Of a stretch of 64,000 nt of DNA, positions 5,631 to 61,092 are shown piece after piece (position 1 is the stretch's first letter; the number at the start of each line of letters is the position of its first letter). The notes under the pieces were generated by a model, which did not search any database, was not told the origin of the DNA, and saw nothing but the letters and a program-made list of their open reading frames with translations. The position numbers and the translations under genes are program-made. Source of the DNA: an uncultured Shimia sp. (lineage in GTDB: Bacteria; Pseudomonadota; Alphaproteobacteria; Rhodobacterales; Rhodobacteraceae); assembly GCF_947493595.1 (NCBI RefSeq), contig NZ_CANLRL010000002.1, forward strand, positions 620,001 through 684,000, read 5' to 3'.

Positions 5631-6391
5631 CAGGTGGTCCCTCCAGGCAGTTTGTCGAGGGCTTTGTCAAGCCAGCCAAGGAAGCCTTGAGGTTCTTCGG
5701 CGACGGGTTCCAGTAGTGGGGCCAACAGGCTTTGGTCGTCCCACGAATCTTTGAGACGTGGCGGGAGGTATTTGTTCACGGGAAGCGTGCCCATTTCTGG
5801 CATAAGGTCAAATCCGCCTCTGGTTTCAACAAGTTGACTGACATCTGAGTTGGGATCAGAGAGATCGCCAAAGTGTCTGGCGCCGGCGGGGCAGGTGCGG
5901 ACGCAGGAGGGGATTTGATCCTCTTCGGGCAGGTTTTCGTTGTAGATGCGGTCCACGCAGAGGGTGCACTTTTTCATCACCCCTTCCGCTTGGTCCAGCT
6001 CGCGCGCGCCATAGGGACAGGCCCAGGCGCAAAGGCCGCAGCCGATGCAGTGGTCTTCGTTGACAAGCACAATGCCGTCCTCGACGCGTTTGTAGCTTGC
6101 GCCGGTGGGGCAGACGGTAACGCAGGGGGCGTTTTCGCAATGTAAACAAGACTTTGGGAAATGCACGGTTTGCGCGTGGCCTTGCTCTGGTTGGACCTCA
6201 TAGCTGTGCACGCGGTTCAAAAACGTGCCCATTGGTTCGGTGCCATAGGGACGCTGATCGGACAGAGGCGCGCCGTAGTTTTCGGTGTTCCAACCTTTGC
6301 AGGAGATCACACAAGCGTGGCAGCCGACGCAGGTGTCCAGATCGATCACAAGGCCGAGGGTACGGTCGGTTTTGGTGGGTAAATTGGTCAT
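5630..6391 (-). CDS. soeB: 4Fe-4S ferredoxin subunit of sulfite dehydrogenase
   Basis: Motifs CVGCHACVISC, CLHCENAPCVTVCPTGA, CIGCGLCAWACPYG. Start moved to MTNLPTKTDRTLGL (6391). Confidence 0.85.
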   Translation of the reverse strand: MTNLPTKTDRTLGLVIDLDTCVGCHACVISCKGWNTENYGAPLSDQRPYGTEPMGTFLNRVHSYEVQPEQGHAQTVHFPKSCLHCENAPCVTVCPTGASYKRVEDGIVLVNEDHCIGCGLCAWACPYGARELDQAEGVMKKCTLCVDRIYNENLPEEDQIPSCVRTCPAGARHFGDLSDPNSDVSQLVETRGGFDLMPEMGTLPVNKYLPPRLKDSWDDQSLLAPLLEPVAEEPQGFLGWLDKALDKLPGGTT

Positions 6392-6398
6392 TTTGCCC

Positions 6399-6441
6399 CG
6401 TCGGTATTGCGTCTGTATTGCGACTGTATCGCGGAGGTGCG
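6399..6441 (+). repeat. 11-bp tandem-repeat element, copy A
   Basis: CGTCGGTATTG|CGTCTGTATTG|CGACTGTATCG|CGGAGGTGCG, contiguous 11-mers. Related copy at 38330-38371. Confidence 0.85.
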
Positions 6442-6459
6442 TATTTTGGCTCGATGAAT

Positions 6460-6505
6460 GGGGGCTCTGCCCCCAGACCACCGGGATATTTGAGGCCAAA
6501 TGAAA
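6460..6505 (-). repeat. Dispersed post-gene hairpin repeat, copy A
   Basis: Minus strand reads CTTTCATTTGGCCTCAAATATCCCGGTGGTCTGGGGGCAGAGCCCCC, just after the soeA stop. Confidence 0.8.
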
Positions 6506-6518
6506 GCGGTTGGTGTGT

Positions 6519-9329
6519 TCATCTGCCCACCTTCCATTCCAAATGATCCGGGCCTTGTGGGACCGGTGACTTGATAGGATCGAAGGCCGGTTGGCTTTCA
6601 GTTGGCGGGTCTGCCTTTTCGATTTTCACGCGTAGATCAAACCAAGCGGCTTGGCCGGTGATTGGGTCAGAGTTGGCCCATCGCAAGCCGTCGCCTTTGG
6701 GCGGCAGCAACTCGTGAATCAGGTGGTTGAGCAGGAAGCCTGTGTTGCTCTCCGGCGCGTCTTCGGACAAAGCCCAGGTGCCTTTGCGTTTGCCAATCGC
6801 GTTCCAGGTCCAGACGGTGTTTTCGTTGAGCGCGGCCTGATGGGCCACTGGCACGGTGATTTCGCCATGGACCGAGGTCACACGTGCCCAGTCGCCTTCG
6901 GAGAAGCTATGCTTCTGCCAGAGTTTGGTTGGGAGGTAGAGCGGGTTCTCTCCATGCAATTGCCGTAGCCAGGCGTTTTGGGTGCCCCAGCTGTGGTACA
7001 TCGCCATCGGGCGCTGGGTGAGGGCGTGCACGTCAAACTCGTCCGGATCGACGCTGCTGTCTTCCAGCGGGGCGTACCAGATCGGCAGCGGGTCCATGAC
7101 CTCCTTGAGGCGGTCGCGCATGTGATCTGGCGGTTGGATGTCGCCGTGACCTTCGGCGGCGCGTTGGAATTTGCGCATTGGTTCTACGTAAAGTTGGAAC
7201 AGATAGGGCTGAGGCGCATCAAACAGCCCGATCTTGACCGCCCAATCCTGATAGTCTTGGTTCCAGGGTTTCATGTAGCGGGCGGCGTCTGGCACGTGCT
7301 CAATCGCAAAGCCGCCGTTTTCGATGTATTTGTCTAGTTGCTCTGGATTGACTGTACCGCGACCAAATTGATCGCCATCTTCACCGCGGAATCCAGCGAG
7401 CGGGCCTACACCGGGGCGACGTTCGTGGTTTACGATGTAGTCGGCGTAGTCCTTCCACTTTGGCGTGCCGTCCTCATTGAGGAAATGCGGCAAGCCGATG
7501 CGAGCGCCAAGTTCGATTAGCACGGATTGGAAACCACGCACGTCGCGGTCAGGCTCAATCACCGGCCAGCGGATTGCGTCGGCGGCGCCGTCAGCCTCGC
7601 AGATTGGGCGGTCCAGCAGCGAGATGCAGTCGTGGCGTTCCAGATAGGTGGTGTCCGGTAGGATCAAGTCGGCATAGGCGACCATCTCGGAACTGTATGC
7701 ATCGGAGTAGATGATGCGTGGGATGCGATAGCCGCCGTCGTCATTGCGGTCGGTCAGCATCTTGATCACACCCGAGGTGTTCATCGAAGAGTTCCACGAC
7801 ATGTTGGCCATGTACATGAACAGCGTGTCGATCGGGTAGGGATCCTGCGCGTGGGCGTTGGAGATCACCATGTGCATCAGACCATGCACCGACATGGGGT
7901 TTTCCCAGGTGAAGGCTTTGTCGATGCGGCAGGCGGAGCCGTCTTCGTTGATTTGCAGGTCTTCGGGGCCGCGCGGGAAGCCGAGGTGTGGGCCTGCGAG
8001 CGGTTTGCCGGGACGGCCGTAGCCGTGGGGCGTCGGGTGGGCCTCTACCGGCTTTGGATAAGGCGGTTTAAAGCGGAAGCCGCCGGGAACTTCGACGGTG
8101 CCCAAGAGGATTTGCAGCACGTGTAGGGCGCGGCAGGTCTGGAAGCCGTTGGAATGGGCAGAAATGCCACGCATGGCGTGGAAGCTGACCGGGCGGCCCG
8201 TCATGGTCTTGTGAGTTTCGCCTCGGAAATCGGTCCATTCCTGATCAAGCTCAAAGGCTTCGTCAAAGGCGACGCGGGCCAATTCGGCAGCGATGGTTTT
8301 GATCTTTTGGGCGGAGATGCCGGTTTTCTCAGCGACGTTTTCCGGCGCGTATTGTGGGTCGAGATACTTCTCGGCCATCAGGTGCATCACCGTGTGGTGG
8401 GTGACGCCCGCTTGGCGGTAGGTGGCCGACAGATCGGGGCGTGCACCTTTTTGGTCAAACGGTGTAGGCTTGCCGGTGGTGCGGTCGATCACCAACTGTT
8501 TGCCGTCGACATCGCGCAAAAGTAGGCCAGTTTCAGCGTCCACCAGCACGGCGGCATTGGTGTATTGCGCGAGGTAGTGCAGGTCGATCTTGCCCGCCTT
8601 CATCAGCTCATGAATGAGCGCGAGAATGAATAGACCGTCGGTGCCGGGTGTGATGCCAACCCATTCATCGGCCACAGCGTTGTAGCCGGAGCGCACTGGG
8701 TTCACGCCGATGACTTTCGCACCATTGGCCTTGATTTTACCAATGCCCGCTTTGATTGGGTTGCTGTCATGGTCTTCTGCCACGCCAAAGATCATGAAGA
8801 GCTTGGTGTGGTCCCAATCCGGTTGGCCAAATTCCCAGAAGGCGCCGCCCATGGTGTAGATGCCCGCTGCGGCCATGTTGACCGAGCAGAAGCCACCGTG
8901 GGCCGCGTAGTTGGGCGTGCCGAAGTGTTGCGCCCAAAAGCTGGTGAAGCTTTGCGATTGGTCGCGGCCAGTGAAGAACGCGAGTTTGTGCGGCGCGGTT
9001 TCATGCAGTTCTGTGAGCCAGCCGACAGCTGTGCTCATGGCCTCTTCCCAGCTGATCTCCTCATACTCACCGGAGCCACGTGGACCCACCCGTTTGAGAG
9101 GCTTTTTTAGGCGCGAGGGTGCGTTGACTTGCATGATGCCTGCGGAGCCTTTGGCGCAGAGCACACCTTTGTTGACCGGGTGGTCACGGTTGCCTTCGAT
9201 GTAGGCCACTTTTCCGTCTTTCATGTGCACGTTGATGCCGCAGCGGCAGGCGCACATGTAGCAGGTGGTCTTGCGGACCTCGTCGGAGACTTTGGGAGAA
9301 AGATCGAGTTGCGGTTGTCCGTCAGCCAT
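6519..9329 (-). CDS. soeA: Molybdopterin oxidoreductase catalytic subunit, sulfite dehydrogenase SoeA-type
   Basis: DMSO-reductase family N-terminus CYMCACRCGINVHMKDGKV...GVLCAKGSAG. ATG at 9329 with upstream GGAAAGG preferred over the TTG at 9350. Context is a taurine/sulfoacetaldehyde locus. Confidence 0.85.
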   Translation of the reverse strand: MADGQPQLDLSPKVSDEVRKTTCYMCACRCGINVHMKDGKVAYIEGNRDHPVNKGVLCAKGSAGIMQVNAPSRLKKPLKRVGPRGSGEYEEISWEEAMSTAVGWLTELHETAPHKLAFFTGRDQSQSFTSFWAQHFGTPNYAAHGGFCSVNMAAAGIYTMGGAFWEFGQPDWDHTKLFMIFGVAEDHDSNPIKAGIGKIKANGAKVIGVNPVRSGYNAVADEWVGITPGTDGLFILALIHELMKAGKIDLHYLAQYTNAAVLVDAETGLLLRDVDGKQLVIDRTTGKPTPFDQKGARPDLSATYRQAGVTHHTVMHLMAEKYLDPQYAPENVAEKTGISAQKIKTIAAELARVAFDEAFELDQEWTDFRGETHKTMTGRPVSFHAMRGISAHSNGFQTCRALHVLQILLGTVEVPGGFRFKPPYPKPVEAHPTPHGYGRPGKPLAGPHLGFPRGPEDLQINEDGSACRIDKAFTWENPMSVHGLMHMVISNAHAQDPYPIDTLFMYMANMSWNSSMNTSGVIKMLTDRNDDGGYRIPRIIYSDAYSSEMVAYADLILPDTTYLERHDCISLLDRPICEADGAADAIRWPVIEPDRDVRGFQSVLIELGARIGLPHFLNEDGTPKWKDYADYIVNHERRPGVGPLAGFRGEDGDQFGRGTVNPEQLDKYIENGGFAIEHVPDAARYMKPWNQDYQDWAVKIGLFDAPQPYLFQLYVEPMRKFQRAAEGHGDIQPPDHMRDRLKEVMDPLPIWYAPLEDSSVDPDEFDVHALTQRPMAMYHSWGTQNAWLRQLHGENPLYLPTKLWQKHSFSEGDWARVTSVHGEITVPVAHQAALNENTVWTWNAIGKRKGTWALSEDAPESNTGFLLNHLIHELLPPKGDGLRWANSDPITGQAAWFDLRVKIEKADPPTESQPAFDPIKSPVPQGPDHLEWKVGR

Positions 9330-36468: not shown

Positions 36469-38198
36469 GCCGCTTGTTGGGTGTTGTCCCCGGCGAGGCG
36501 GGTCCAGGCGTCGTATTGCGCGAGGAAGACCTCGCCGCTGAGGTCATCGAGGAAGTGGCTGCGCTTGAGGCGGTCCATGACGGGGCCTTTGACCTCTGAG
36601 AAATGCAGGCGGATGTTGAGCTCTTTGAGGCGGGAGTTGATCGCCTCCAGACTTTCCAACGCGCTCATGTCGATTTCGTTCACAGCCGAGGCCATGAGCA
36701 CCACATCGGTGATCGGTTGGTCACAGACCACGCGGTCATAGACGTAGTCTTCCAAGAAGCGTGCGTTGGCGAAATACAGGCTTTCATCAATGCGTAACGT
36801 GACCAGATGTGGCGCGGTTTTAACCTTATGGCGCAGGATGTTACGGAAGTGCTGTGTTCCGGGCACAAGGCCGACCTCTGCCACATGCGGACGGCTGGTT
36901 TTGTAAAGATGCAGCGCGATGGAGAGGATCACACCGGCGCTGACACCGACTTCAACACCAAGTCCCAATGTGAGCGCAATTGTGGTGGCAACGGCGGCAA
37001 AATCAACGCGAGAGTAGCCCCAGGCATGGCGCAGTATGGAGAGGTCCACGAGGCTGAGCACGGCGACGATGATGGTGGCGGCGAGGGTGGCTTTGGGTAG
37101 GAAGAATAGCAGGGGCGTGAGGAAGAGCGCAGCGCCCGCGATGCCAACGGCGGTGAAGGCCCCGGCGGCGGGAGTTTGTGCGCCTGCGTCGAAGTTCACA
37201 ACAGAGCGGGCGAAGCCGCCAGTGACCGGGTAACCACCTGAAATCGCTGAGGCAATGTTGGAGGTGCCGAGGCCGATGAGCTCTTGATCAGGGTCGATGC
37301 GCTGGCGGCGTTTGGCGGCCAAGGTTTGCGCAACGGAGACGCTTTCAACGAAGCCGATGATGGAGATCAGCAGTGCGGCCAAGAAGAGTTGGGACCACAG
37401 GTCCGGGGAGAAACTGGGGGCGGAAAGTGGCGGCAGGCCGGTTGGAACGGTGCCGACAATTGCCACGCCTTTCCCTGCAAGGTCAAAGGCATAGACGGAC
37501 AACGTGGTCGCGGCGACGGCGGCGACGGGGCCGGCTTTGGTGAGCACGTCCGCGAGGCGAGGACCGACGCCGGTTTTGAGCAGGAGCGGTTTGAGGCCTT
37601 TGCGGGTCCAGAACAGGAAGGCCAAAGCGGTTGCGCCGAGGGCCAACGTGTAGAGGTTGGTTTCTGGCAAATGGGTCACCAGTGAGGTGAGCAATTCGGG
37701 CAAGGTGTGGCCGTGGGCTGTGACGCCGAGGATGTGTTTCAACTGGCTTGTGGCGATCAGGATTCCGGAGGCGGTGATGAAGCCTGCGATCACCGGATGG
37801 GACAGGAAATTGGCAAGGAAACCAAGGCGTAAGAGGCCCATGAGGGTGAGCATGACGCCGGACATGAAGGCCAATGTAATCGCCGCAATCAGGTACTCTG
37901 TTGTGCCTTGTAAAGCGAGGTTTCCGAGGGCGGCGGCGGTCATCAGGGAGACCACGGCGACCGGGCCGACGGCGAGCACACGGGAGGTGCCGAAGATGGC
38001 GTAGGCGACCAAGGGTAAGATGGAGGCGTAGAGACCCACTTCGGGCGGGAGACCGGCAAGCAGGGCGTAGGCCAGGGACTGTGGAATCAGCATGATGGTC
38101 ACGATCACGGCGGCCATGAGATCGGCGCCAAGTATCTGACGGTCATAGGTTTTTGCCCATTGAAGGATGGGGAAGTAACGCTTGAGCTGCTGTGGCAT
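36465..38198 (-). CDS. SulP family anion permease with STAS domain
   Basis: SulP N-terminus (ADLMAAVIVTIMLIPQSLAYALLAGLPPEVGLYASILPLVAYAIFGTSRVLAVGPVAVVSL) and C-terminal STAS. Start MPQQLKRYFP at 38198. Confidence 0.9.
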   Translation of the reverse strand: MPQQLKRYFPILQWAKTYDRQILGADLMAAVIVTIMLIPQSLAYALLAGLPPEVGLYASILPLVAYAIFGTSRVLAVGPVAVVSLMTAAALGNLALQGTTEYLIAAITLAFMSGVMLTLMGLLRLGFLANFLSHPVIAGFITASGILIATSQLKHILGVTAHGHTLPELLTSLVTHLPETNLYTLALGATALAFLFWTRKGLKPLLLKTGVGPRLADVLTKAGPVAAVAATTLSVYAFDLAGKGVAIVGTVPTGLPPLSAPSFSPDLWSQLFLAALLISIIGFVESVSVAQTLAAKRRQRIDPDQELIGLGTSNIASAISGGYPVTGGFARSVVNFDAGAQTPAAGAFTAVGIAGAALFLTPLLFFLPKATLAATIIVAVLSLVDLSILRHAWGYSRVDFAAVATTIALTLGLGVEVGVSAGVILSIALHLYKTSRPHVAEVGLVPGTQHFRNILRHKVKTAPHLVTLRIDESLYFANARFLEDYVYDRVVCDQPITDVVLMASAVNEIDMSALESLEAINSRLKELNIRLHFSEVKGPVMDRLKRSHFLDDLSGEVFLAQYDAWTRLAGDNTQQAA

Positions 38199-38232
38199 TG
38201 GGGCCTCATGAGAGTCGCGGTTGCGCTCTATA

Positions 38233-38250
38233 TATTCCAAAAATGGAATA
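38233..38250. promoter_or_regulatory. Inverted repeat TATTCCA-AAAA-TGGAATA, containing ATTC-N8-GAAT
   Basis: 35 bp upstream of the SulP start. Matches the ATTC-N8-GAAT pattern reported for SqrR. Confidence 0.5.
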
Positions 38251-38329
38251 AGAAAACCCTTACAGGAAAACTTGTCGGAAAATAGCGGCTCGGCTCAAAG
38301 GTTAACGCAGTCAAATCGAACAAATGGCG

Positions 38330-38371
38330 CGTCGGTATTGCGTCGGTATCGCGACTGTTTTGCGGAGGTGC
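38330..38371 (+). repeat. 11-bp tandem-repeat element, copy B
   Basis: CGTCGGTATTG|CGTCGGTATCG|CGACTGTTTTG|CGGAGGTGC. Same order and end as copy A. Confidence 0.85.
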
Positions 38372-38448
38372 AAAAAGTGACGCTCACGTCAGGTTAACGG
38401 CCTGTCGTGCGTGCGGCCCGGAGCGATGTGCCCCGAGCCGCAGAGGTT

Positions 38449-39801
38449 TTAGGCGGCCGCGAAGCCGGTGTCCAAAGCGGAGAGAATGGTGTTCACCTCG
38501 TCCTCGGAGATGGTCAGCGGCGGGGACATCAGGATGTTGTGTGCGCCCAGACGCACCATGGAGCCGGCCTGATAGGTGGCCTCGTGGATCTTTTTCATGG
38601 TGGCCATGTCCATCGGAGTTTTGGCGGTGGCGTCAGAGACCAGCTCGATGCCCGTCATGAGGCCGTGGCCGCCACGCACGTCGCCGATGATGTCGTATTT
38701 GTTCGCCAGTTTTTTCACACCTTCGAACAGCTGTGTGCCACGGAAGGCGGCGTTGGTTTTGACATCCAAACGGGTGGTCTCCGCCAAAGTGGCGATCACG
38801 GCGGCGGAGCCAACCGGATGGGCGGAGTAGGTGTAGCCGTGGAAGATGCCGGCTTCGCCGGTTTGGTCGTTTTCAAACACGTCGGCCACTTTGTCGCCGA
38901 CCATGCAGGCACCAACTGGGAAGTAGCCGGAGGTGATGCCTTTGGCGGTGGTCATCATGTCAGGCTGCACACCCCAGTGCCGTGCACCGGACCAGTCGCC
39001 GGTGCGGCCAAAGCCGGTGATGACTTCGTCAGAAATCATCAGGATGCCGTGGCGGTCGCAGATCTCGCGCATCAGCTTCATGAAAGAGGCGTCCGGCACA
39101 ATCACACCACCCGCGCCCTGGATAGGCTCCATGATGAAGGCGGCGATGGTTTTTGGGTCCTGGAACGCGATCTCGTCTTCAAAAGCGGCGGCGATGTTTT
39201 GCGCCAGCTGGGCCGGATCGGTCTCGTTGAACGGGTTGCGGTAGGGGTAAGGCGACGGCAGGTGGAAGCAACCGGGCAGCAGCGGTTCGTAGTTGATGCG
39301 GAAACGGTTGTTGCCATTCACGGACGCGCCGCCAAAGTGGGTGCCGTGGTAGCCTTTTTTAAGGCTGATGAATTTGGTGCGGGTCGGCTCGCCGCGCAGG
39401 CGGTGGTACTGGCGGGAGAGACGCAGGGCTGTTTCTACGGAATCAGAGCCGCCCGACGTGAAGAATACGCGGGACATGCCGTCCTCAGCGAAAAACTCGC
39501 GTACGGCATAAGAGGCTTCAATGGCCGGTGGGTTCGAGGTGCCAGCAAAGGCAGAGTAGTACGGCAGATCGTAGAGCTGTTTGGCGATGGCCTCTTTCAC
39601 CACGTCGTTGGAATAGCCGAGGTTGACGCACCACAGGCCGCCCACGGCGTCCACGGTGGAGTGGCCGTCGATGTCGGTGATGTTCACACCTTCGGCACCC
39701 TTGATGATCTTGGGCGGGGTGCTGTGGCTGTCCGCGGGTGCGCCCATCGGATGCCAAAGATGGCGGGCGTTGTTTTCCGTCAGGAAGTTGTCGTCTTTCA
39801 T
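38449..39801 (-). CDS. Class III (omega) aminotransferase
   Basis: 450 aa. PLP motifs (FFTSGGSDSVETALRLSRQYH, LMISDEVITGFGRTG, TTAKGITSGYFPVGA). Confidence 0.9.
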   Translation of the reverse strand: MKDDNFLTENNARHLWHPMGAPADSHSTPPKIIKGAEGVNITDIDGHSTVDAVGGLWCVNLGYSNDVVKEAIAKQLYDLPYYSAFAGTSNPPAIEASYAVREFFAEDGMSRVFFTSGGSDSVETALRLSRQYHRLRGEPTRTKFISLKKGYHGTHFGGASVNGNNRFRINYEPLLPGCFHLPSPYPYRNPFNETDPAQLAQNIAAAFEDEIAFQDPKTIAAFIMEPIQGAGGVIVPDASFMKLMREICDRHGILMISDEVITGFGRTGDWSGARHWGVQPDMMTTAKGITSGYFPVGACMVGDKVADVFENDQTGEAGIFHGYTYSAHPVGSAAVIATLAETTRLDVKTNAAFRGTQLFEGVKKLANKYDIIGDVRGGHGLMTGIELVSDATAKTPMDMATMKKIHEATYQAGSMVRLGAHNILMSPPLTISEDEVNTILSALDTGFAAA

Positions 39802-43230: not shown

Positions 43231-43262
43231 CAAATATCCCGGGGTCCGGGGCAGCGCCCCGG
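43231..43262 (+). repeat. Dispersed post-gene hairpin repeat, copy C
   Basis: CAAATATCCCGGGGTCCGGGGCAGCGCCCCGG just downstream of rmuC. Confidence 0.75.
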
Positions 43263-49720: not shown

Positions 49721-49841
49721 CTCTGTTCCCCTCATATTCGATTTTCCATAGATCAGCCCCTTGCGACGATGGCAAGAGCCGCGCCGCCGCGTCTTTTGCG
49801 TGGCAGGTCCCGCCACTCTCTGCCTTCATCCTCTCCTTCTC

Positions 49842-49890
49842 TAAATATCCCGGGGGAGTCGCCGCCTGCGGCGATGGGGGCAGCGCCCCC
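49842..49890 (+). repeat. Dispersed hairpin repeat, copy D
   Basis: TAAATATCCCGGGGGAGTCGCCGCCTGCGGCGATGGGGGCAGCGCCCCC. Confidence 0.8.
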
Positions 49891-61032: not shown

Positions 61033-61092
61033 TTCATTTGGCTCAATATATCCCGGGGGAGTCGCCCGAATGGGCGGCGGGGGCTGGCCCCC
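61033..61092 (+). repeat. Dispersed post-gene hairpin repeat, copy E
   Basis: TTCATTTGGCTCAATATATCCCGGGGGAGTCGCCCGAATGGGCGGCGGGGGCTGGCCCCCT, 12 bp after a stop codon. Confidence 0.8.

Follow-up and report, generated by a model that had tools for sequence, protein, structure and literature searches.

To our knowledge, a genome-wide set of sequence-specific chromosome-organising sites is known in few bacteria. The matS, Noc, SlmA, and Ter sites form limited, dispersed sets of sequence-specific chromosomal sites; the element described here resembles them in this respect, but it is spread chromosome-wide and is a direct-repeat tetrad instead of a palindrome. Its 11-bp direct repeats would fit side-by-side docking as in the iteron-like ParR/parC centromeres, from which it differs in being chromosomal, dispersed at ~86 places, and without a plasmid match in PLSDB. 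It shares with KOPS and AIMS an orientation that follows the leading strand, whereas those are 8-bp words in hundreds of copies or more and the element is 42 bp long with ~86 copies. Among known enzymes, DNA gyrase comes closest to its putative wrapping factor. In the E. coli gyrase motif, two 47-bp arms with a G/C period of 10.75 bp enclose a centre of 36 bp, and cleavage by the enzyme is concentrated in BIME-2 and downstream of transcription units (PMC6379681). Like BIME-2/REP sequences and strong gyrase sites, the element is intergenic, has many copies near gene 3' ends, and shows an A/T-G/C periodicity suited to wrapping (PMC6379681).

Two copies, A and B, lie in the window, that is, the whole 64,000-nucleotide stretch of an uncultured Shimia sp. 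genome that was analysed. Their features are as follows.

6399-6440, + strand: copy A core, 42 bp in four units (6399-6409, 6410-6420, 6421-6431, 6432-6440), in the soeA/soeB gap
6391-6394, + strand: T run, the family A/T tract at -8 to -5
6442-6447, + strand: downstream A/T tract TATTTT, family position +43 to +48
6254-6549, + strand: approximate phased stretch around copy A, with the ~11.2-bp A/T phasing of the family average
38330-38371, + strand: copy B core in four units (38330-38340, 38341-38351, 38352-38362, 38363-38371), in the gap from the stop of the aminotransferase gene to the start of the SulP transporter gene
38185-38480, + strand: approximate phased stretch around copy B, with the helical phasing of the family average

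The phasing assigned to 6254-6549 and 38185-38480 is a property of the family average and is not proven for either single copy. A preliminary description of this DNA had reported a dispersed composite repeat with the same order and end at both sites, and this was confirmed: the units of copy A, CGTCGGTATTG, CGTCTGTATTG, CGACTGTATCG, and CGGAGGTGC, recur in copy B in the same order and with the same end, and the two copies share 87% identity across 47 nt. The start given for copy A, 6399, was correct, and its end lies at 6440, one base before the 6441 proposed. The copy A gap is bounded by the soeA stop (6519) and the soeB start codon (6391-6389), both on the minus strand, and the first base of the T run doubles as a base of that start codon (CAT at 6389-6391, minus strand). 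Both genes flanking copy B are also on the minus strand. The names soeA and soeB are adopted from the preliminary description, and the copy B neighbours, recognised by sequence, are presumably an aminotransferase and a SulP transporter. The copy A site is occupied in genomes G017 and G018 and empty in G005, G009, and G012; the copy B site is occupied in G018, with five units.

A second dispersed repeat lies next to copy A (6459-6503); in it, a G/C-rich hairpin, GGGGGCTCTGCCCCC, precedes CCGGGATATTTG. It recurs in the window near 43231-43262 (minus strand), 49839-49889, and 61042-61092, and similar sequence is present in the soeA/soeB gap of G017 and beside some other elements.

Pattern searches detected dozens of additional copies of the four-unit element in the genome of the window. 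A sequence-only covariance model built from 41 copies gave 87 matches in its 4.28 Mb, 86 of them at E <= 0.0013 (best 3.5e-19). The pair of copies A and B is not due to chance; the coincidence that the preliminary description had considered, with no further copies and no conservation, is contradicted by ~86 copies and by conservation in relatives. With the same model, most of the searched genomes of the genus carried 63-97 copies, G004 carried 34, G005 and G009 gave one weak match each and G012 none, and no copy was found in 16 genomes from other alphaproteobacterial families. With a second model, trained on several genera, the count rose to 101 for G004 and was 78 for the single-contig genome G310; seven further genomes had 13-43 copies, and G005, G009, and G012 gave 1-2 matches. 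At least 151 matches were obtained with this model in G323, and the true number may be higher, as ~150 candidates per genome at most were scored and counts near ~150 are lower bounds. When 84,980 named genomes were scanned by pattern, the matches listed came almost only from Rhodobacteraceae genera or relatives, including Shimia, Roseovarius, Pseudooceanicola, Salinihabitans, Silicimonas, Boseongicola, Sedimentitalea, Marivita, and others.

Plasmid-borne origin is disfavoured, since neither of two consensus sequences matched any of the 72,556 plasmids in PLSDB, a search with a short query and no positive control. The pattern occurred in only two viral contigs, and phage origin was likewise set aside; these IMG/VR contigs (L353 and L354) each carry a full-length element and could be either prophage or mis-binned host DNA. 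Rfam gave no match in the window at the gathering score, and searches of the openly licensed literature with the core sequences and combined terms found no earlier description.

The element is built with a rigid register. Forty-four copies from this genome align with zero gaps, and exactly four units with a fixed 11-bp register were present in 83/83 copies tested, while G310 copies have three or four units. The Shimia consensus, oriented as copy A, is (C)CA CGTCGGTATYG CGTCKGTATCG CGACTGTTTTG CGGAGGTGC g-n-w-TTTT. Other genera carry a purer form of three CGTCGGTATYR units followed by CGTCGGTGC. Because CGTCGGTGC occupies the position of CGGAGGTGC there, CGGAGGTGC is a diverged fourth unit and not a separate tag. 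The separate anti-SD-like last block of the preliminary description, and an SD-related role with it, is thus not upheld, and RNAalifold on 41 copies found no conserved fold (-3.7 kcal/mol, with 7 weak pairs and a covariation term of -0.29). The hairpin-forming palindrome that characterises REP/BIME sequences is also absent. In G310, many copies (loci L346 and L355-L383) share a longer tail beyond unit 4, GGACCCGAACGGTGGGTTTTGG, which the Shimia copies do not have.

With gene calls from a simple codon-usage script, 0/84 copies of this genome overlapped a predicted gene. Among the 80 gaps that could be classified, 41% were convergent and 5% divergent, compared with 5% and 39%, respectively, for other gaps of >= 70 bp at the same loci; G310 and G017 showed the same convergent-rich, divergent-poor tendency. 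The element shuns promoters and prefers gene ends, a multi-copy intergenic repeat near gene 3' ends as REP/BIME sequences are. The location of copy A in the soeB leader, to which the preliminary description had drawn attention, is therefore incidental. The flanking genes at inspected sites were ordinary metabolic or housekeeping genes with no common theme. Head-to-tail 11-bp repeats are typical of OmpR/PhoB-type regulators, and the copies could in principle form the regulon of one such transcription factor with tandem sites; with promoter gaps avoided and no functional theme among the sampled neighbours, we regard this as extremely unlikely. One element is conserved between genera (L363 in G310 and L130 in this genome), flanked in both by the same pair of genes, which encode sugar isomerase-like and oxidoreductase-like proteins of 83% and 70% identity.

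The copies are also distributed along the chromosome more regularly than expected. In this genome, 72 within-contig distances averaged 44.1 kb with a CV of 0.62, compared with 0.93 for random placement; 0/2000 simulations were as regular, and gaps < 10 kb numbered 1 against 14 expected. Similar values were obtained for G310 (mean 46.8 kb, CV 0.70, P = 0.0002; short gaps 2 versus 14.7 expected) and for G017 (CV 0.54, 0/3000 simulations; short gaps 0 versus 6.6 expected). The spacing is too even for chance, yet it is statistical (CV 0.54-0.70) and not strict.

Comparison with relatives suggested vertical inheritance. When the element flanks of relatives were compared with all element flanks of this genome, ~17/22 loci of other Shimia lay at an orthologous position in the same orientation, and ~20/30 loci of the distant G017 were orthologous in position, always in the same orientation; both counts required at least one matching flank and were made by eye. 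The element consensus varies among genomes, including at shared positions. Because positions are shared while the motif drifts genome-wide, the copies are more readily explained as binding sites co-evolving with a protein than as mobile sequences. A selfish short mobile repeat, a REP/MITE relative inserting between genes, would account for numerous similar intergenic copies, for the sites empty in G005, G009, and G012, and for a genome-specific consensus. It would not account for position and orientation kept between species, for over-even spacing, for the lack of a hairpin, or for drift of the consensus at shared positions, and insertions at non-orthologous positions are not what the locus counts reveal. 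We consider it highly improbable, and the mobile element suggested in the preliminary description is not supported.

Four loci (the soeA/soeB gap, the hemE side, the metG side, and mfd, the last three presumptively named by sequence recognition) contain the element in G017 and G018 and no element in G005, G009, and G012. In a four-gene tree, these three lacking genomes cluster together, and the missing set represents one event, either loss or ancestral absence. Because they form one clade, the absence cannot single out one gene.

The orientation of the copies tracks the local GC skew, measured over 3-5 kb and noisy at that scale (mean +0.10, 88% positive, t = 13). Skew-matched orientation was also observed in G017 (93%), G310 (85-90%), and 80 named loci from multiple genera (90%), and in G017 the orientation changes sign along with the large-scale skew, at the origin and terminus that the skew defines (C1:400-600 kb and C2:960-1050 kb). 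These data would suit replication-polar signposts, KOPS/AIMS- or Ter-like, read by a translocase or a fork barrier. The core is, however, rich in G and T, and base composition alone predicts 77-85% leading-strand orientation against the 87-93% observed, so that most of the polarity, although real, may be a composition by-product. Polarity was accordingly discounted as proof of a polar function, and neither the number of copies (~86) nor their length (42 bp) resembles that of KOPS or Ter; the signpost explanation appears quite improbable.

The sequence around the core is helically phased. A/T-rich peaks occur ~11 bp apart near positions -51, -39, -27, -16, and -6, then at 7, 18, and 29; the phase breaks at unit 4, and further peaks lie past the core at 45, 67, 80, and 100. 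The A/T period is ~11.2 bp; its phase is locked to the element between -145 and +150, and the signal fades past ~+150. None of 1000 random-shift controls reached this signal, either for 286 pooled sites or for this genome alone. No phasing was detected when the anchors were moved by -400, +400, or +600 bp, and a shift of -600 bp gave a marginal signal (P = 0.047); in the smaller G017 set, far-flank phasing was weaker. The proposal in the preliminary description that the ~one-turn period reflects phased protein binding is strengthened by a phasing that reaches ~145 bp on either side. A wedge model predicted a curvature peak just upstream of the core (over 60 bp, 44 degrees compared with 25; z = 14.6). 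The ~11.2-bp A/T phasing has the character of a DNA-wrapping or curvature signature, which describes a property or preference of the DNA and not its occupancy. With a period above 10.5 bp, DNA tends towards a right-handed superhelix, which is also its path in negatively supercoiled plectonemes and around gyrase.

One alternative in view of these features is that the copies act as strong sites for DNA gyrase, at which the enzyme would wrap the phased flanks and cleave near unit 4, giving ~86 hard-wired loading points like BIME-2 or the phage Mu site. A periodicity of 11.2 bp on both sides of a centre is of the gyrase type (10-11 bp in arms), and the unit-4 phase break and the 3'-end or convergent location agree with it, as does the Shimia A/T profile, which is roughly symmetric around position 37 (r = 0.61). 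That symmetry centre was not reproduced in other genera, and dyad symmetry was therefore rejected as proof of gyrase. Gyrase is essential and general, yet sites are missing altogether from three genomes of Shimia and from many others in the family; its motif is highly degenerate whereas the element core is strictly conserved, and the phased span of ~300 bp is about twice the 130 bp of the motif. The element further departs from BIME-2/REP and gyrase sites in lacking a palindrome or hairpin, in its fixed 11-bp direct repeats and regular spacing, and in that a whole set is missing from one clade. On balance, gyrase sites seem an unlikely explanation. GapR and HU/IHF were ruled out as factors tracking the element, since genomes with and without it did not differ: GapR is present as one copy in each of 16 genomes, and HU/IHF as 3-4 members in each of 17.

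Overall, the interpretation given in the preliminary description is partly supported. With moderate confidence, we favour the reading that the copies are intergenic sites, inherited vertically, at which a chromosome-organising nucleoprotein complex would assemble. Protein subunits would dock side by side on the four 11-bp direct repeats, on one face of the helix, and the flanks to ~145 bp on each side, predicted to be curved most strongly upstream, may bend or wrap, probably in a right-handed superhelix. The ~86 sites, about one per 45 kb, would lie where little transcription should pass, and they would probably serve to anchor, constrain, or service domains of supercoiling. Their presence or absence among genomes, together with the drift of the motif, points to a candidate cooperative DNA-binding protein or complex whose specificity may co-evolve with all sites; such a putative reader would be dispensable, because one Shimia clade is without the entire set.

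More tentatively, and as a possibility that we hold below an even chance, the element could belong to a new chromosome-organising system of the Rhodobacteraceae, in which a dedicated, dispensable DNA-binding protein would assemble on ~86 regularly spaced four-repeat sites, each with ~300 bp of phased DNA wrapped, marking ~45-kb supercoil domains, with specificity and sites co-evolving. What sets the limits of supercoil domains is not yet settled. The absence of the whole set in a related clade provides a natural comparison of genomes with and without sites, and the element itself is a ready bait to fish out its binding protein.
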